Shown here piece by piece: positions 30,216 through 39,930 of a DNA stretch of 64,000 nt. A model generated the notes under the pieces. That model made no database searches, was not told the origin of the DNA, and worked only from the letters and a program-made list of their open reading frames with translations. The position numbers were made by a program, and so were the translations under genes. Position 1 is the first letter of the stretch. Each line of letters begins with the position of its first letter. The DNA is from Ustilago trichophora (Eukaryota > Basidiomycota > Ustilaginomycetes > Ustilaginales > Ustilaginaceae): contig OOIN01000007.1 in NCBI GenBank assembly GCA_900323505.1, positions 1,116,001-1,180,000 of the forward strand. Direction: 5' to 3'.

Positions 30216-30590
30216 TGTAATGAGCTACTATTGTTGAGTAGAAGAGGAGAGGATCAAGAAGAAAGACAAACAAAGCTTGGTCATGAGTAACGAAGCAAAA
30301 GAAGATGGTATTACTGAAGAAGGAGGTAACTGAGATACTGATCGCATTTGACACACGCGCGCGCTGCGCGCGCGGGCCACTTTTGATGAGTAGCTTACGA
30401 AAAAAAATTTGCAGTGATCAAAAATATCGGATAGATCTGCTAGATCGGCAGATCTGTGATCGCAAAAAATTATCGCACGACAAAATTGTGAACAAAATCG
30501 AGCGCGATCGGGAGATCGGCTGGATCTGCAAAATCGGAAAAAGAAAAAACCGCGACAAAAACAAGTAGCAAATAACCACAACTCGGGACA
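30216..30590. repeat. Diverged solo LTR of the same Ty3/gypsy family
   Basis: This 375-base copy begins TGTAA and ends GGGACA, and aligns with the 371-bp LTRs of the complete element over most of its length, with scattered substitutions and small indels. The CG-alternating core near 30355-30377 is unchanged. No internal element sequence is attached. It is flanked by CCGT on both sides (30212-30215 and 30591-30594), as expected after LTR-LTR recombination of an older insertion. Confidence 0.9.
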
Positions 30591-30929
30591 CCGTGTGAAA
30601 AGATATCGCCAAGGTAATTGCGCAACCTGCATGGGAGTCTAGACAATCAAGTCTTGACCGCAAAAATGCGCATGTCGGCGTACAGCATGCATAGTGAATG
30701 CTGTTTCTTGCGTTTTCTATCCTGCTAATGCAATTATAGAACCTGATAATGAATTATCAAATGTGCGTGTGAGGATTTCCTTTGCTAAAGCGTGGAATCT
30801 CGTCAAGATTTCCAACACAATCAACCACAGAGACAAAGTCTCCAAGCCTATTGCTACAACTGATTCCCAGAGTAAGATAGTTGTATGAATATAAAGAGTG
30901 TGAGCAGACGATCAAGATGATTGTACCGT
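30591..30929. other. Spacer between solo LTR and full element
   Basis: About 340 bases of A/T-rich sequence into which the complete retrotransposon inserted. No gene was recognised. Its last four bases, CCGT, are the target duplication of the element. Confidence 0.5.
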
Positions 30930-31300
30930 TGTAACGAGATAGTAGAAATGAGCAGGAGAAGATTTGCTCAAGTAAAGGACAAACCGAGATTGTTGACGTG
31001 TATATGGTGTGAGAAGAAGATGGTATTACTAAAGGAGGAGGTAACTGAGCTATTGATCGCATTTGACACACGCGCGCGCTGCGCGCGCGGGCCACTTTTG
31101 ATGGAAAAATTTGTAGTGATCGAAAAATATATCGGATAGATCTGCCAAATCGGCAGATCCGTGATCGCGACAAATTTTCGCAAACAAAAAAATGCGAACG
31201 AGATCGAGCGCGATCGGGAGATCGGCTAGATCTGCAAAAAATCGGAAAAAAGGAAAAAACCGCGACAAAAACAAGTAACAAAAAACCGCGACTCGGGACA
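30930..31300 (-). repeat. 3' LTR of the retrotransposon
   Basis: 371 bases, TG...CA ended on the plus strand (TGTAACGAG ... CTCGGGACA). It is identical by eye to 38232-38602. It contains the CG-alternating palindrome near 31069-31089 and a GATCTGCC/GGCAGATC hairpin near 31139-31159. It provides the polyadenylation end of the minus-strand transcript. Confidence 0.95.
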
Positions 31301-31545: not shown

Positions 31546-34500
31546 TTAATCTCTTAGTTCGTCTTCCCCAGCAAGTACTGCTTGGATGTCTTCTGCCATC
31601 GTGCGCGCCATATGGACAGGAGAGGATTCTCCATTGCGGTTGGCATTGGCGTGCGAAAGAATCGAAGGATAATACCGTTTGAGGCGATCGAGATGGACTC
31701 TCTCTTCCTTGCCATCGATGAGACTCTTGATGAGGTAGGTCTTTCGTTTCTTCGTCATTACCATGAAAGGTCCAACCCACCTTGGCGCGAGTTTTGCTCG
31801 GGTGGAATAGGTCGATTCAAAGAGAGTTTGATGTCGAAGTACGAGATCTCCAAGCTCGATATCCTCCTTGGATGATCTAGGCTTACTCTTTTCTGACCTG
31901 ATCGCTTGGGCTGTCTCGAGGGTGGACAAGGCTTCTACCCGGCGGACGTCAACAAAAGCACGTTGCATCCGTATATCGATCAATTCGGGTGCGCCTGTAG
32001 CAGCGGGCACTCGTTCAGCTATAACATAGCCAAAGAGTAGCTCAGTGGGTGAGAGATTGGAGAGATCGACGATTGGGCGGCGATTAAGTTCTCTCGTGGC
32101 TGTAGAGAGATGCTCTGTCCACGGAAAAGCGAGTTGTGAGACCGTAGGTGCCGTAGCGGCGGCACAGAGACGTCGTAGAGTCTGCAAAATTAGACCGTTG
32201 TTTTGTTCGACAAGTCCATTGACCCAAGGAGCATAAGCTGGTGTGATATGCTGATCAACTCCATGCTCCGTGAGGAAGTCATATACTTCAGCGCAGTCAA
32301 AGTGACTTCCGCCGTCTGTAATGATTGTGGTAGGCAGGGTTGATAGATTGTCGTGAAGTAATTGGAGACTTGCTACGACATCCACTCCACAAGCTTGGGA
32401 CAGGGGGAAAGTCCATAGGTAATGGGAGAAGTAATCGACTATAACCAGGAGCTTTGTCTTGCCATGTGAGTTAGGCAGTGACATAAAGTCCATTGCCCAG
32501 GTTTCCATTGGTACGGCGACAACAATTGGATCCACTTGAGATCGTTGACGTGGGCCATAGACTTGACAGGCCTGGCACGTTTTGAGGACCTCTTTGGCAT
32601 CGGCATATAGCTTGGGCCAAGTGACCATTTCTTGCAACCGTAGCTTTTTGACCAACATGTTAATACCAGCATGACTGAGTTGATGTACCTGCGCTAGTTT
32701 ATGTATTCCTTGAGAGCGTGGTAACACATCGAGCAAAAGACCGTCTTGCTCGTAAACAAGCTTACTATCCTCAAGCCGATATCTCTTCATTCGTCGCATC
32801 TTGTCCCGTAGAGCCTGAGTGCTTGGCATTTCGAGTAAGAGCAGGAAGCGAAGGACTGGCTCGAGTTCATCACCCTTGAATCGTTCCAAAAGGGGACCGG
32901 CTTCTTTGTCAATGACTAGATACCGTTCAACGACATCTCTTGTGAACAGCTGAGGTTCATAGGCGAGTGGAACAGCGGGAAGATCGGTGGTAGCGGGTTG
33001 GTCTTGGCAAACGTGGTAAACAGGGCAAGAAGATTTCAATGCCAGAAGTTCTCTGTCATCCGGAAGGACGGGAGCAACAGGTTCATTGTCGTCTGGAGCA
33101 GCAGGTCGGTGGGACAGTCCGTGTGCCAACTGGTGGCGACGGCCAGCACAATGTTCGACCTTTATGATGTTGTGAGCTAGGAGTTGCTCTCGCCAACGAG
33201 CGTGAGCGACTGGCATCTTGTCATTACGAAGTATGTCTCGGAGCGCAATGCAGTCGGTGACCAGGATGATGGGTTGGCCAAAAGTGAATGCAGAAAACCG
33301 TGTGAGCGCGAACTTAGCAGCAACCAGTTCTCCAAGATGAGCTGAGTACCGCGATTCAGCTTCAGTGCACTTCTTGGAGGCATACGAGATAGGGAATACA
33401 ACCTTTTTCAAAGTAGCACCTGGTACCAAGCCAATATCAACTTGAGGCTCATTGAGCAGGTTCCATCGTCCATTGACGTCCTTTTGCATGACATACTCCT
33501 GGAGCAGTACGGCTCCGATACCTTCAGCACTCCAATCGGAATGGACAATAAAAGGTCGATCCCAGCGTGGTTCTTTTAGCACACGGCTATTAACCAGTGC
33601 ATTCTTGACTCTCAGGAACGCGGCATCATGAGCCGGCGTCCATGCATCGATCAATCCAGCATCATAATCGACGATGCCAGCAGTTAACGAGTCTAGAGGT
33701 GCGAAGACTTTGGCAAAATCCGGTACCTTTGAGCGCAAGTAAGAACATACTCCCCAAAAGGTCATGAGTTCGCGGACCGTTTTAGGAGTTGGCCAGTTTA
33801 AAATCGCCTTTAGTCGAGAAGGGTCTGCACGAATTCCATCGAGTCCGATCAACTGTCCACAGAAACTGATGTTCTCGTGTAGGAATTGACACTTTTCTAC
33901 GGAAAGAGTGAATCCAGTATCGATGGCACGGTCCAGGAAGGCTCGTAGCCAGCAGAAGTAGGAGTCGAAGTCTGGGTGGCCTGACGCTACATCATCCATC
34001 CAGAAGTCTGAGTCTCGGTCAAAGAGATCACCAAACGCCGTAGTGATGAATCGGTAGTAGAGAGAAGGTCCGACTTTAAACCCAAAGGGCATCACCGTAT
34101 AACCAACGAAACCGAAATCTTCAACATAGGTGACCGAAAGAAGAGTTGCCAGTCTAGAGTTGGCCATGATGAAGAAGCCAGCGCAACCATCACCCTTGAA
34201 GAGGAACCGCTTTCCTGAGAACTTGGAAGCTTTGACCTCAATATCGCCGGGTATGAAGGAATTGTCTTTCATGTAATGGTTGATTGGCGCATAATTATGC
34301 ACTAGACGGTATCGACCTTTAGCGACTTCGACGGTTGGAAGAGATACATCCGCGGATGGTGGTGGAAGGGATTCGTCGTACTCCAGGCCTGCTTCTTTGA
34401 GTGCAGCATTGGCCTGTAGCTTGAGCTCCTCAAGAGAGACATTTGAGTCTATTTCTGCTGCCGGTTTCGGGACAATGCGTGTCTCCGAGATCCATCGTAC

Positions 34501-36510
34501 CTCGTTTTCTGGAATCTTAACCATAAAGCTGTTATCGAGCAATTCCCTAACTTTGGAGTGGAGGAAATCTTTTTGCGGAGGTGACAGAGCTTGGGTCTTT
34601 GATCGTCGTTTGGTAGCCGGTGGCTCGCTAGTTAGAATAGGATCACAGATGACTTCCATGTTCTGCTTACACTCGGCAGTGCTCTCAGCAAATGCCAAGT
34701 GTTTGGCGTGTAGAAGGTCTGCGAGATGTTGTCGTTGAGCAGGCGTGCCGACTGATCCAAAGCGGGCGAGTAGATTCTTCAAGACTCTTCCAGACCTCTC
34801 GTCCGAATCGTCATCTGGTTTGCCGTTGACGCAATAAGGACGGAAACGCTTATAGGTCCGTGAACGTGCCTCGAGATAGTCAGGATCGTCGTTGACAATG
34901 GGCAAACGGAGCTGCAAGTCTTTGAGCTCTGGCTTATCGACAGGGAGGTCAAATCGCACGGAGAAAGAGGGCATGGACCAACAACCTGTGTCGACTAACT
35001 CGTCGATAGGAGTAAGACCGAGAGGGTCCTCTTCGTCCTCTGATTCATCTTGCAAGTCATCGTAGAGAGTAAGAGATGACAAATCGAGCACAGTATGCGA
35101 TGGAGAGAGTGCCTCCAACTGCGCAACACTGGCATACGGTTGAGCTGCAATTAAGAGTTTGACAGCCGTCATCGGCGTGTCAGGGACTAGATGAGGATTC
35201 GCTGACTGGTGGGTTGGTATAATTCGAGCCCATCGACGGAATTGCGAACCAGAATCATATTGAGGGATGAAGAACAGGTCGAGCTCGTAGAAATGCAAAG
35301 CTCCAACCTTTACCTTCCAGGGCCGTCCAAGTAGCATCGTTGCAATGGTGCTTGGCATAACCTCATACTCGACTTCAACAGGGTCAGTATTGACCCCATC
35401 TATATCTCGTACTTTGGTCAGCAGCTTGACTACACCAAGGGATTGAACTACTTGACTGCTCGCCATCCTTAAGTAGATATCGGATGGCGTTGGCTTGAGG
35501 CCTGCGGCGGCGGCTACGGCCTGGGAAATCGTATTAACCATTGCTCCTTCATCCACGGCTGCCGTGCAGGTAAAGTCTTCATCATTGTCACTTGTGAAAT
35601 GCACCGCAACTGTGAAGAGTCGATTTTTATTTGCATGTGCTCTATGTTGGAGAGCACGAAGATCGACCTGTGGCCTTGGATGAGCTCGTCGTCGAGGAGG
35701 AGTAACGACAGGCAGAGGAGGTAGTATATGCGGGTCAGGTAAAGGTGGAGTCACCACCGAAGGGGAACGAGAAATGCTCGGCGAAGGGGGTGGTGTCGTG
35801 GGTGAAGTGGTCTCGATGGAAATCTGCGGGCCTAGAGAAATGGACCGCGACGGATTAGAGGTCGTGAGAGTAGAAAGAGGACTCTCGATGACAGAAGGAG
35901 TAGGCTTTTCGTCAGGGAGAGACGACATAGCCAGACCAAAACCAACCGAATCACCAGATCCCATTCGCAAAGCAGAGGAAGGGGAAACAGAGGGGGAGGT
36001 CGGACAAGAACATGATACAGGCTGGATGTGCGACACGGGCGCACCATCCTGCGTTAGAGGCTGGATATGCGTCACAGGCGCATCATCCTTCTTTTTTGCC
36101 AACGGGGCAAATTTATGAGGGGAAGTGTTCGTGCCTTCCACAGCGTCGGCCAAGGTACACTCACTGCTTAATCCGAAGAGCAGAGAATCTCTCCCTTCCA
36201 CAAGGGAAGGGGGCATGGCTCCCACTGCGGTGCCAGCACCAGACAGCGAAGGAGCACCTTTATGAGAAGATGCTCGAGGGAGCAGCGAGTGTTCTTGACG
36301 AACGTATGGAGTGGGCTGAACACTTACCAATTGAGAAACAGAAACAGAACCAGGAGCCGAAACAGAGACGGATGAAATAGGCGAAAAACGAGTCTGCGTC
36401 GATGCAGAAGGAGTAACCGTGGAAGAAGAAGCCATCGACGAAGGGGAGGTGAGACCCAGAGTGGCGAGCACGGCCGAGCGATTAGGGTCTTGATTCGCCG
36501 GCCTTACTGG
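31546..36510 (-). CDS. pol: Retrotransposon pol polyprotein (PR-RT-RNaseH-IN), -1 frame
   Basis: The pol frame is open from about 36577 to the stop at 31546-31548 and overlaps the end of gag. Entry is most likely by -1 frameshifting at GGGAAAC (36510-36516); the first in-frame ATG is only at 36435. About 270 low-complexity residues come first. Then comes a retropepsin-like domain with Asp-Glu-Gly (near 35544-35552) instead of the usual DSG/DTG. The reverse transcriptase follows, with 'WMDD' near 34000 where most have Y/F-x-DD, then RNase H ('SDWSAEGIGAVL', Glu in 'YSAHLGELVAAK', 'VTDCIALRDIL'). The integrase has an HHCC finger (about 32560-32690) and a DDE core: Asp in 'AMDFMSLP', Asp in 'ITDGGSHF', Glu in 'VEQNNG'. 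It closes with a GPY/F-like 'WVGPF' module near 31770. Confidence 0.94.
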   Translation of the reverse strand, partial: PVRPANQDPNRSAVLATLGLTSPSSMASSSTVTPSASTQTRFSPISSVSVSAPGSVSVSQLVSVQPTPYVRQEHSLLPRASSHKGAPSLSGAGTAVGAMPPSLVEGRDSLLFGLSSECTLADAVEGTNTSPHKFAPLAKKKDDAPVTHIQPLTQDGAPVSHIQPVSCSCPTSPSVSPSSALRMGSGDSVGFGLAMSSLPDEKPTPSVIESPLSTLTTSNPSRSISLGPQISIETTSPTTPPPSPSISRSPSVVTPPLPDPHILPPLPVVTPPRRRAHPRPQVDLRALQHRAHANKNRLFTVAVHFTSDNDEDFTCTAAVDEGAMVNTISQAVAAAAGLKPTPSDIYLRMASSQVVQSLGVVKLLTKVRDIDGVNTDPVEVEYEVMPSTIATMLLGRPWKVKVGALHFYELDLFFIPQYDSGSQFRRWARIIPTHQSANPHLVPDTPMTAVKLLIAAQPYASVAQLEALSPSHTVLDLSSLTLYDDLQDESEDEEDPLGLTPIDELVDTGCWSMPSFSVRFDLPVDKPELKDLQLRLPIVNDDPDYLEARSRTYKRFRPYCVNGKPDDDSDERSGRVLKNLLARFGSVGTPAQRQHLADLLHAKHLAFAESTAECKQNMEVICDPILTSEPPATKRRSKTQALSPPQKDFLHSKVRELLDNSFMVKIPENEVRWISETRIVPKPAAEIDSNVSLEELKLQANAALKEAGLEYDESLPPPSADVSLPTVEVAKGRYRLVHNYAPINHYMKDNSFIPGDIEVKASKFSGKRFLFKGDGCAGFFIMANSRLATLLSVTYVEDFGFVGYTVMPFGFKVGPSLYYRFITTAFGDLFDRDSDFWMDDVASGHPDFDSYFCWLRAFLDRAIDTGFTLSVEKCQFLHENISFCGQLIGLDGIRADPSRLKAILNWPTPKTVRELMTFWGVCSYLRSKVPDFAKVFAPLDSLTAGIVDYDAGLIDAWTPAHDAAFLRVKNALVNSRVLKEPRWDRPFIVHSDWSAEGIGAVLLQEYVMQKDVNGRWNLLNEPQVDIGLVPGATLKKVVFPISYASKKCTEAESRYSAHLGELVAAKFALTRFSAFTFGQPIILVTDCIALRDILRNDKMPVAHARWREQLLAHNIIKVEHCAGRRHQLAHGLSHRPAAPDDNEPVAPVLPDDRELLALKSSCPVYHVCQDQPATTDLPAVPLAYEPQLFTRDVVERYLVIDKEAGPLLERFKGDELEPVLRFLLLLEMPSTQALRDKMRRMKRYRLEDSKLVYEQDGLLLDVLPRSQGIHKLAQVHQLSHAGINMLVKKLRLQEMVTWPKLYADAKEVLKTCQACQVYGPRQRSQVDPIVVAVPMETWAMDFMSLPNSHGKTKLLVIVDYFSHYLWTFPLSQACGVDVVASLQLLHDNLSTLPTTIITDGGSHFDCAEVYDFLTEHGVDQHITPAYAPWVNGLVEQNNGLILQTLRRLCAAATAPTVSQLAFPWTEHLSTATRELNRRPIVDLSNLSPTELLFGYVIAERVPAATGAPELIDIRMQRAFVDVRRVEALSTLETAQAIRSEKSKPRSSKEDIELGDLVLRHQTLFESTYSTRAKLAPRWVGPFMVMTKKRKTYLIKSLIDGKEERVHLDRLKRYYPSILSHANANRNGESSPVHMARTMAEDIQAVLAGEDELRD

Positions 36511-36516
36511 TTTCCC
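36472..36516 (-). promoter_or_regulatory. -1 ribosomal frameshift signal at gag/pol junction
   Basis: On the minus strand, the heptamer GGGAAAC (36516-36510) lies in the X-XXY-YYZ phase of gag, two codons before its stop. A six-base spacer, which includes the gag stop, follows. Then GGCCGGCGA (36503-36495) pairs with TCGCTCGGCC (36481-36472) in a 9-bp stem with one bulged U and a 13-base loop. Slipping back one base at the heptamer enters the open pol frame exactly. This is the standard architecture of retroviral -1 frameshift sites; that it works here is inferred. Confidence 0.82.
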
Positions 36517-37775
36517 TGGCCTCGCTGCTGCATGACGGCCTGAGAGAACATTCGGCGATAATTCTGCTCTGCTTGATCAAGAGCTCGCTCATTGGAATCC
36601 TTACAGAACCGGTATTGATGGCCCTTTTTGCCGCAACGGTGACATTCGCCACTTCCCGGGTGCTCTGTGCCCGGGTAGAGAGGATAGGCATAAGTCAAAG
36701 GTGGTTGCAAATGCACACAAGGGTGCTCGAGGCGATATTTCTTTAGAGCCTCCTGATAGTCGCAATGACCTTGATCCGTGTCAGGGAACATGACTTGGGG
36801 AATGGTGGTAACATCGACGGCAGGGGCAGGAGGTGGCATCAAACAAAGAAAATTGCCTTTGCCAGTACTACCCGTGGGGGAGTGTGAAGGAGAGATGGTC
36901 TCAAACCTAGGGCGTTTCTCTTCCGGAGGAGTGAGGGGGAGAGATCCTCGTCGACGGAGGTTGGTTAGAATAACAGCCAGGTCCTCCAGACGCGTGTTAA
37001 CCTTGGCCAGCTCATCATGAGAGGCCACGACCTTGTTGTAGACCGTAGAAGGGAGTGCTCGACAGAGATTAACGGCCTCGGAGATCGATTTTGGCATAGT
37101 GCCAAGGTGAGAAAGAAGTCCTTCAGGCAACGCAGCCCAAAACTGAATTGTCATGTACTCCTCGGAAACAAAGGTAGTATCAACCTTCGTGGCAAGATCG
37201 AGTACAACAGACAACCAAATGCGCCATTCCTTGACATCGCGGAGGTCTTCGATGGTCTTGGGCGTCTTGACCGCTTCCTGGAAATCCTGGTAACGGGTGG
37301 CAGGTGTATCGCGCACCTTTCGTGCATTGCCGTATTGGAGAAGGAAGGCAGCCTGGAGAGCTTCGAACTCTGCTTTCACGGAAGGGCTCAGCTTGTTGAG
37401 CCAGTCTTGCGCAGATTCAGTCATTAAGGCCTTGAAATACTTGAGCTTTTGAGCTGGGTGATCATTGATGCCTCGATCCAGGCAGAAGATCTCGAAGTCC
37501 TCCAACCAAGACTGGGCATCAGCGTCATGAACACTACCCGTAAACTTCGGGATCATAGTGTTGACAGCAACTGACTTGGGGAGAGGAGGAGAGAGAGACA
37601 TTCTGAGGCCTTTGAGCTCTTTGGAGAGCCGTGGAATCGAAAGTGGGAGACGTAGTTCTTGCAGAGGTTCGTGAGACGTGCCGTGATACCGTGGGAAAGA
37701 GTGTCTGCGAGGTGGCGAAAGAGGTGCTACCTCGGGCTTAAGACCTGCGATTCGTCTAGAATGACGATCTGGCAT
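36504..37775 (-). CDS. gag: Retrotransposon gag (capsid/nucleocapsid) protein
   Basis: This is a 423-residue frame from a true ATG at 37773-37775. Residues ~70-190 resemble a retrotransposon capsid domain ('FTGSVHDADAQSWLEDFEIF', followed by 'AQDWLNKLSPSVK'). Near residues 378-391 a zinc knuckle of the form Cx2Cx4Hx4C is complete ('CHRCGKKGHQYRFC'); it would bind the element's RNA. The frame ends just after the slippery heptamer, so most ribosomes would make Gag alone and a minority Gag-Pol. No stops or frameshifts break it. Confidence 0.92.
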   Translation of the reverse strand: MPDRHSRRIAGLKPEVAPLSPPRRHSFPRYHGTSHEPLQELRLPLSIPRLSKELKGLRMSLSPPLPKSVAVNTMIPKFTGSVHDADAQSWLEDFEIFCLDRGINDHPAQKLKYFKALMTESAQDWLNKLSPSVKAEFEALQAAFLLQYGNARKVRDTPATRYQDFQEAVKTPKTIEDLRDVKEWRIWLSVVLDLATKVDTTFVSEEYMTIQFWAALPEGLLSHLGTMPKSISEAVNLCRALPSTVYNKVVASHDELAKVNTRLEDLAVILTNLRRRGSLPLTPPEEKRPRFETISPSHSPTGSTGKGNFLCLMPPPAPAVDVTTIPQVMFPDTDQGHCDYQEALKKYRLEHPCVHLQPPLTYAYPLYPGTEHPGSGECHRCGKKGHQYRFCKDSNERALDQAEQNYRRMFSQAVMQQRGQGNQ

Positions 37776-38231
37776 ACGATGAAGGAATGATGAGCACTTA
37801 AAACAGGATAGCCGTCCTATGAGAGTGGCGACTGAATGACCAAAAGAATGGCGATAGACTAAAGATCGAATCCAGCGGGTGGATTTTTCGGCCTACGCCA
37901 GGAGTACTGCAATCAAAGCAAGGGATCCAGCGATTAGTTCGAAAGATCGTTGGGAGCCCAAAGCAAACGAGTTGACCAGGAAAGATACCGTAAGACCGCG
38001 CCGAGGTTAGAGATTCGTTGATGATCGTCGAAGTAGCCAGATTAGCAATGATAAGCAGGAGACCGTTAATTCGAAGAGAGGGGAAAAGAGAAAGACGCTT
38101 GGAAGAGCCGAGAGAATGGAAAGTGGATGGATGGAGGATCCGACAAAAGTCAGATCGCTAATACTGAGGAAGGAAGGGAAAGGAAAGAGAGCTGGAAACA
38201 GTAGAAGACCGTTTCCGGGTTGGCCCCCCAA
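37776..38231 (-). other. Retrotransposon 5' leader with probable primer-binding site
   Basis: 456 bases between the 5' LTR and the gag ATG. On the minus strand the sequence right after the LTR reads TTGGGGGGCC (38231-38222). A primer-binding site would be expected here and commonly starts with TGG, but I could not assign the tRNA. The packaging signal presumably also lies here. Confidence 0.55.
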
Positions 38232-38602
38232 TGTAACGAGATAGTAGAAATGAGCAGGAGAAGATTTGCTCAAGTAAAGGACAAACCGAGATTGTTGACG
38301 TGTATATGGTGTGAGAAGAAGATGGTATTACTAAAGGAGGAGGTAACTGAGCTATTGATCGCATTTGACACACGCGCGCGCTGCGCGCGCGGGCCACTTT
38401 TGATGGAAAAATTTGTAGTGATCGAAAAATATATCGGATAGATCTGCCAAATCGGCAGATCCGTGATCGCGACAAATTTTCGCAAACAAAAAAATGCGAA
38501 CGAGATCGAGCGCGATCGGGAGATCGGCTAGATCTGCAAAAAATCGGAAAAAAGGAAAAAACCGCGACAAAAACAAGTAACAAAAAACCGCGACTCGGGA
38601 CA
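38232..38602 (-). repeat. 5' LTR of the retrotransposon
   Basis: 371 bases, identical by eye to 30930-31300. For minus-strand transcription it should supply the promoter. A TATATTTTT-type A/T run lies near 38425-38434, between the Asp-rich hairpin region and the CG palindrome. It is followed by the CCGT target duplication at 38603-38606. Confidence 0.95.

Positions 38603-39930
<1,328 letters not shown>

Follow-up and report, generated by a model that had tools for sequence, protein, structure and literature searches.

A probable -1 frameshift signal with a predicted pseudoknot at the gag-pol junction of a young smut Ty3/gypsy retrotransposon

GGGAAAC is listed as the slippery heptamer at the gag-pol sites of FIV and CAEV and at the gag-pro sites of MPMV, SRV-1/2 and JSRV (PMC3835772). 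The same overview places a spacer of typically 6-9 nt, and then a stable structure, behind the slippery sequence of -1 frameshift sites. PEG10, a mammalian gene that descends from a Ty3/gypsy element, is described as having GGGAAAC and a pseudoknot with a spacer of 5 nt between them (PMC2800197), and G_GGA_AAC is counted among the shiftiest sites in mammalian systems (PMC5009743). An earlier reading of the locus studied here, made from its letters alone (the sequence-only reading), had named lentiviral gag-pol sites as the known home of this heptamer, which is right for FIV and CAEV (PMC3835772) but too narrow, as PEG10 carries it too (PMC2800197).

In fungi, elements with -1 and elements with +1 shifts have both been reported, and the proportion of +1 to -1 is given as less skewed than in animals (PMC5009743). 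Ty1-Ty4 have pol in the +1 frame, with frameshifting in Ty3 described as mechanistically distinct (PMC7175516, PMC5009743), and the Verticillium Gypsy elements VdLTRE2-4 have pol in -1 relative to gag (PMC3441728). Given the Verticillium elements and the less skewed fungal proportion, the sequence-only reading overstated how unusual a compact cassette of the retroviral kind is for a fungus. Among the matches listed in a search of open-licence titles and abstract beginnings, none described a pseudoknot at a frameshift site for a Ty3/gypsy element of a smut or another basidiomycete; most subscription papers lie outside this body of text, and the silence is weak evidence for the absence of an earlier description.

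The element and its gag-pol junction

The window, i.e., the whole 64-kb stretch of Ustilago trichophora DNA that was analysed and to which all positions refer, contains an LTR retrotransposon on the minus strand. Its 5′ LTR (38232..38602) and 3′ LTR (30930..31300) are both 371 bp long, run from TG to CA and are the same at 371/371 bp. ACGG stands at both outer ends of the element (minus strand) and is probably its target-site duplication. As the LTRs are identical to each other and ACGG is found at both ends, the element is probably a recent insertion.

The surroundings of the element hold two further repeats. LTR-like stretches that adjoin the 3′ LTR (30299-30388 and 30538-30607) are probably an older partial LTR, and a pure TTCT tetranucleotide array (39349-39526, 44.5 copies, 100% matches) separates the element from a sodium:solute symporter gene.

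The gag ORF (36504..37892, minus strand; 462 aa from stop to stop) carries a CCHC zinc knuckle, recognised by eye, ahead of the heptamer. It matched no gag family in Pfam, and the protein search gave a single database match, from the same genome. The pol ORF (31546..36576, minus strand; 1676 aa from stop to stop) is ordered linker, protease, RT, RNase H and integrase. The profiles of RT, RNase H and integrase are all above their Pfam cut-offs; the protease match, Asp_protease_2, is below its own (19.4 vs 24.3 bits), and its motif reads DEGA. The motif of retropepsin-type proteases is usually D-S/T-G. A chromodomain is absent among the seven Pfam families matched in the pol ORF (E <= 0.01), and the element is thus not assigned to the chromoviruses. 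Among solved structures, the yeast Ty3 Gag-Pol polyprotein (7q5b) is the top match of pol, with RT and RNase H as the best stretch; PFV integrase is a further match, to the integrase region. By its LTRs, its zinc-knuckle gag and the order RT-RNase H-integrase, this is a Ty3/gypsy LTR retrotransposon.

The 3′ end of gag reads CAG GGA AAC CAG TAA, so that the heptamer G GGA AAC (36510..36516, minus strand) fits the X XXY YYZ phase. It is followed by the six-base spacer CAGTAA (36504..36509, minus strand), which holds the gag stop codon. The pol ORF is in the -1 frame relative to gag and is open across the heptamer. GGGAAAC in gag phase, a six-base spacer with the gag stop and a slippage that would enter pol in frame had all been put forward from the sequence, and all of them agree with the frames found here. 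The accompanying claim that pol has no useful ATG near its start needs a qualification, as in-frame ATGs do exist. In this copy, the first of them is 69 nt past the gag stop; its place varies between copies.

Conservation and pairing potential among the family copies

Searched with 300 aa of RT, the genome yielded 27 matches, consisting of 14 family members (near-full 300 aa, 71-100% identity), one 59-aa fragment (73%) and 12 matches at 24-26%. The junction is kept in 13 of the 14 full RT-bearing family copies, and all 13 have GGGAAA(C/T) in phase, NNNTAA and the first stem described below. No recognisable gag junction was present within the 4-kb stretches read around the fourteenth copy (C16:927971) and the 59-aa fragment. 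In copy L038, the gag frame is broken further upstream of its in-phase heptamer. Since three of the 13 junctions are identical to others, ten distinct rows were aligned; these copies share 65-99% identity in RT DNA, and most of them are well diverged at RT silent sites.

The comparison of junction DNA covers copies within one genome, and relatives in other smuts were compared as proteins. Pol protein relatives with 47-60% identity, among the 7991 candidates sharing most words that were scored, include those of Melanopsichium pennsylvanicum and Pseudozyma flocculosa. A viral contig collection contained no relative by protein search or by pattern search.

The spacer is 6 nt long in all ten distinct copies and reads NNNTAA in each, with its first three bases variable. 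How far upstream of the gag stop the pol frame opens varies between copies, from 40 to 235 nt, so that constancy is limited to the last bases. Bare GGGAAAC is frequent, with three occurrences per strand in the window. When in-phase positions are considered (over as many as 330 codons ahead of the gag stop in ten copies), canonical heptamers occupy 11 of 3280, and ten of these 11 are the junction site. The pattern GGGAAAYNNNTAAGGCC has 13 sites in the 38.8-Mb genome, every one of them at a family junction, and the reversed control has none.

Behind the spacer, GGCCGGCGA (36495..36503, minus strand) can pair with TCGC-T-CGGCC (36472..36481, minus strand), leaving the T bulged. This bears out the stem of 9 bp with one bulge and a 13-base loop that the sequence-only reading had proposed. 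The same reading regarded the stimulator as a plain stem-loop within 36472..36516; that stem is present, but half of the likely structure was missed, as AGACCC inside the loop (36485..36490, minus strand) can pair with GGGTCT (36452..36457, minus strand), which starts 14 bases beyond stem 1 and lies past the end of that segment. AGACCC is invariant in 10/10 distinct copies, as is GGGTC, and the last T is found in 8/10, copies L004 and L039 being without the last pair of stem 2.

In this copy, the predicted pseudoknot has loops of 4, 3 and 14 nt and a second stem of 6 bp. Across the ten copies, loop 1 measures 4 nt here and 7-8 nt elsewhere, stem 2 has 5-7 bp and loop 3 has 14-17 nt, and the 3 nt between the stems become 5 in L042. 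Stem 1 of L042 has 8 bp and no bulge, and its GGGTC(T) is found 17 bases beyond the stem vs 14 in the other rows.

The pseudoknot can form in each of the ten distinct junction sequences. For each of them, 0-3 of 200 shuffles matched the real score in an H-type search, and stem 2 as a duplex with a few flanking bases comes to -9.7 to -14.6 kcal/mol. Folding z values were -2.67 for a stretch of 47 nt and -2.46 for one of 81 nt that includes the heptamer, and -1.20 and -0.65 in two other stretches; folding energy alone is only suggestive of a structure. The simple stem-loop without a pseudoknot was the initial reading and was dropped once the junctions of related copies were compared. Judged by pairing potential, an H-type pseudoknot, rather than a simple stem-loop, most likely serves as the stimulator.

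Pairs were counted under two placements of the bulge, which must shift by one base in 3/10 sequences, and 95.3% and 97.3% of 150 cells are paired in the ten copies. Pairing falls to 25-54% when the partner is slid by 1-3 columns. Three pairs are changed on both sides, and shuffling gave as many in 2 and 0 of 500 cases; all three cells lie in stem 1 and come from L042 and L004, and stem 2 has no covariation in any of the ten copies. Further pair types, a weak measure, were matched by 44 and 14 of 500 shuffles. The covariation score under the first bulge placement is about equal in the real alignment (0.080) and in slid ones (0.086 at -3, 0.077 at +1). An alignment of related copies, suggested beforehand as a check and run here on the copies of one genome, thus finds heptamer, spacer and pairing conserved, with a few compensatory changes.

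RNA-level constraint, splicing and internal initiation

In principle, the junction could owe its conserved bases to constraint on the protein or to gene conversion among the copies, with no RNA structure involved, and the pol N-terminus is indeed largely conserved at R-P, D-P, R-S-A and G-L, of which D-P and G-L are the amino acids of stem 2. Invariant pol-frame third positions are, however, interleaved within 60 bases, at 8/11 inside the helices and 0/9 outside, which neither protein constraint nor conversion tracts would predict, and we regard this explanation as very unlikely. In RT, 17/298 third positions are invariant; Fisher's test of the junction vs RT third positions gives p = 8e-8, which is optimistic since the positions were picked after the alignment was seen.

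Further counts give the background for these positions. The third base in RT is invariant in 8/178 amino-acid-invariant degenerate columns and in 0/60 columns of V, A, G, P or T, and early pol has 20/263 gap-free columns with an invariant third base in ten copies. In gag, the third position is invariant in 4/38 amino-acid-invariant columns, three of the four being the CAG, GGA and TAA of the cassette. Part of the conservation of stem 2 could be at the protein level, and the invariant third positions argue against the protein as its whole cause.

A second block that appears to be conserved at the RNA level lies in the pol linker (36279-36132, minus strand) and contains GGTGCTGGCACC; CCATGCCCCCTTCC...GGAAGGGAG would be able to form a hairpin. 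Up to 9/10 third positions are invariant here in nine copies, which is as dense as at the junction, and no long alternative ORF is common to these nine copies. A search by its central 12-base word did not find the block in L042. This block is possibly a packaging, dimer or initiation element.

The joining of gag and pol by splicing is no more probable than protein constraint or conversion. If the GTAAGG of the spacer began an intron, gag and pol would come into one frame, as implied by the public gene model UTRI_03748, of which 1955/1956 residues map exactly to the element, the missing residue being at the splice point of the model. The models P0002 (this copy) and P0003 exit gag after ...QGN and resume in pol 188 and 185 nt on, respectively. 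The sequence at this exit is CA/GTAAGG, a donor-like word, and we infer from the models that their intron begins at or near it. The spacer GT is, however, found in only 4/10 distinct copies and is missing in six, P0007 has a different bridging intron that deletes the zinc knuckle, and P0001 and P0004 represent gag and pol of one copy as two separate genes. Splicing also leaves the conservation of heptamer and helices unexplained. Splicing at the spacer GT was rejected because the donor is restricted to these four copies and the models disagree; their inconsistent introns look like the work of gene finders bridging a frameshift.

The public gag gene model starts at ATG 37601. Another donor-like word, GTAAGT at about 36327 (minus strand), occurs in the pol linker of 8/9 copies, without an identified acceptor.

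Separate production of pol from an internal AUG or a subgenomic RNA, which would make the junction incidental, is the least probable explanation and was rejected, for although the conserved RNA block 285-369 nt past the gag stop holds an in-frame ATG in 9/10 distinct copies and five mapped public models (P0004, P0005, P0006, P0008 and P0011) begin inside pol at an internal ATG, the first in-frame ATG is placed differently between copies, L042 keeps the cassette though its block was not found by the central 12-base word, and separate initiation leaves the in-phase heptamer, the spacer and the pairing unexplained.

We therefore favor frameshifting over these explanations: the junction is very probably a complete programmed -1 ribosomal frameshift signal of a young smut Ty3/gypsy retrotransposon. 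A -1 cassette in a fungal Ty3/gypsy element was also the central claim of the sequence-only reading, which phase, frame, pairing and conservation in related copies support. From the observed sequence, phase, frame, pairing potential and conservation we infer pseudoknot formation, slippage and its efficiency as follows. Ribosomes translating gag would reach G GGA AAC with the pseudoknot six bases downstream. By analogy with known sites, the H-type pseudoknot would help the Gly and Asn tRNAs to slip in tandem, setting a minority of ribosomes back by one base. Slipped ribosomes would continue into pol and make Gag-Pol, with ...RGQGN-PVRPANQDPNR... as the predicted fusion sequence, and the remaining ribosomes would end at the TAA of the spacer and release Gag.

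Other families and comparison with known systems

All 12 weaker RT matches were traced upstream. Two further Ty3/gypsy families, here families 2 and 3, have about 25% RT identity to the main family and are backed by gag and protease profiles, some of the gag scores being near or below the cut-offs. Family 2 has eight copies by DNA search, with GGGAAAT in 8/8. Its gag phase was confirmed in 4/4 frame-checked copies (L045, L047, L050 and L051), and pol is open across the site in three of the four, L045 being without an open pol frame there. A 6-nt spacer precedes a candidate pseudoknot of 6 bp + 10 bp, which outscores 200/200 shuffles in the one copy tested; in 2/8 copies an uncompensated base change, judged by eye, is found in the 3′ arm of stem 2.

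Family 3 (L062 and L063) has GAG GGA AAC in gag phase and pol in -1, with the pol frame opening just upstream. A spacer of 4 nt separates the heptamer from a 14-bp stem, at about 2700-2770 in element orientation, and a second stem of 5 bp is possible; 0/200 shuffles were as good as this candidate pseudoknot in the one copy tested. The Ty3-like L052 has pol in -1 and no canonical in-phase heptamer, with a gag that has no Pfam match, and no gag was seen in the stretches read for L044 and L061. GGGAAA(C/T) is thus common to 3/4 readable junction types, and the structures downstream of it differ.

GGGAAA(C/T) at the end of gag may be an ancestral trait of Ty3/gypsy elements and retroviruses, kept in at least three families of one smut, in PEG10 and in several retroviruses, with the pseudoknot replaced in each lineage, a proposal that we consider doubtful. 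If it were true, smut genomes would display turnover of the stimulator behind a fixed slip site. A single fungal genome contains diverged natural copies of one putative frameshift pseudoknot and, after heptamers of the same type, two further candidate stimulators of different design, material with which one could test what a stimulator depends on. Our observations also suggest that automatic gene models in the U. trichophora genome split or splice gag-pol wrongly at frameshift sites.

The Verticillium elements VdLTRE2-4 resemble the smut element in their -1 pol and differ from it in carrying a chromodomain, which was not found in the smut element; a slippery site or pseudoknot is unmentioned for them in the available part of their description (PMC3441728). 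Budding-yeast Ty3 provides the nearest solved structure of the smut pol (RT/RNase H) but has its pol in +1, vs -1 here. The retroviral GGGAAAC sites share with the smut junction the heptamer and a predicted or known H-type pseudoknot. They differ in host and lineage, and the smut element has a bulged stem 1 and 3 nt between its stems. PEG10, as described, resembles the smut element, with its predicted pseudoknot and probable -1 shift, in having GGGAAAC, a pseudoknot and a -1 shift that leads from a gag-like frame into a pol-like one. It differs in being a mammalian gene that has been domesticated and has an overlap of 61 nt, vs a fungal LTR element with the gag stop within a 6-nt spacer. The mechanism of such a cassette is already known from retroviruses and PEG10, and a -1 pol has been published for fungi; the smut cassette is a well-preserved new example.
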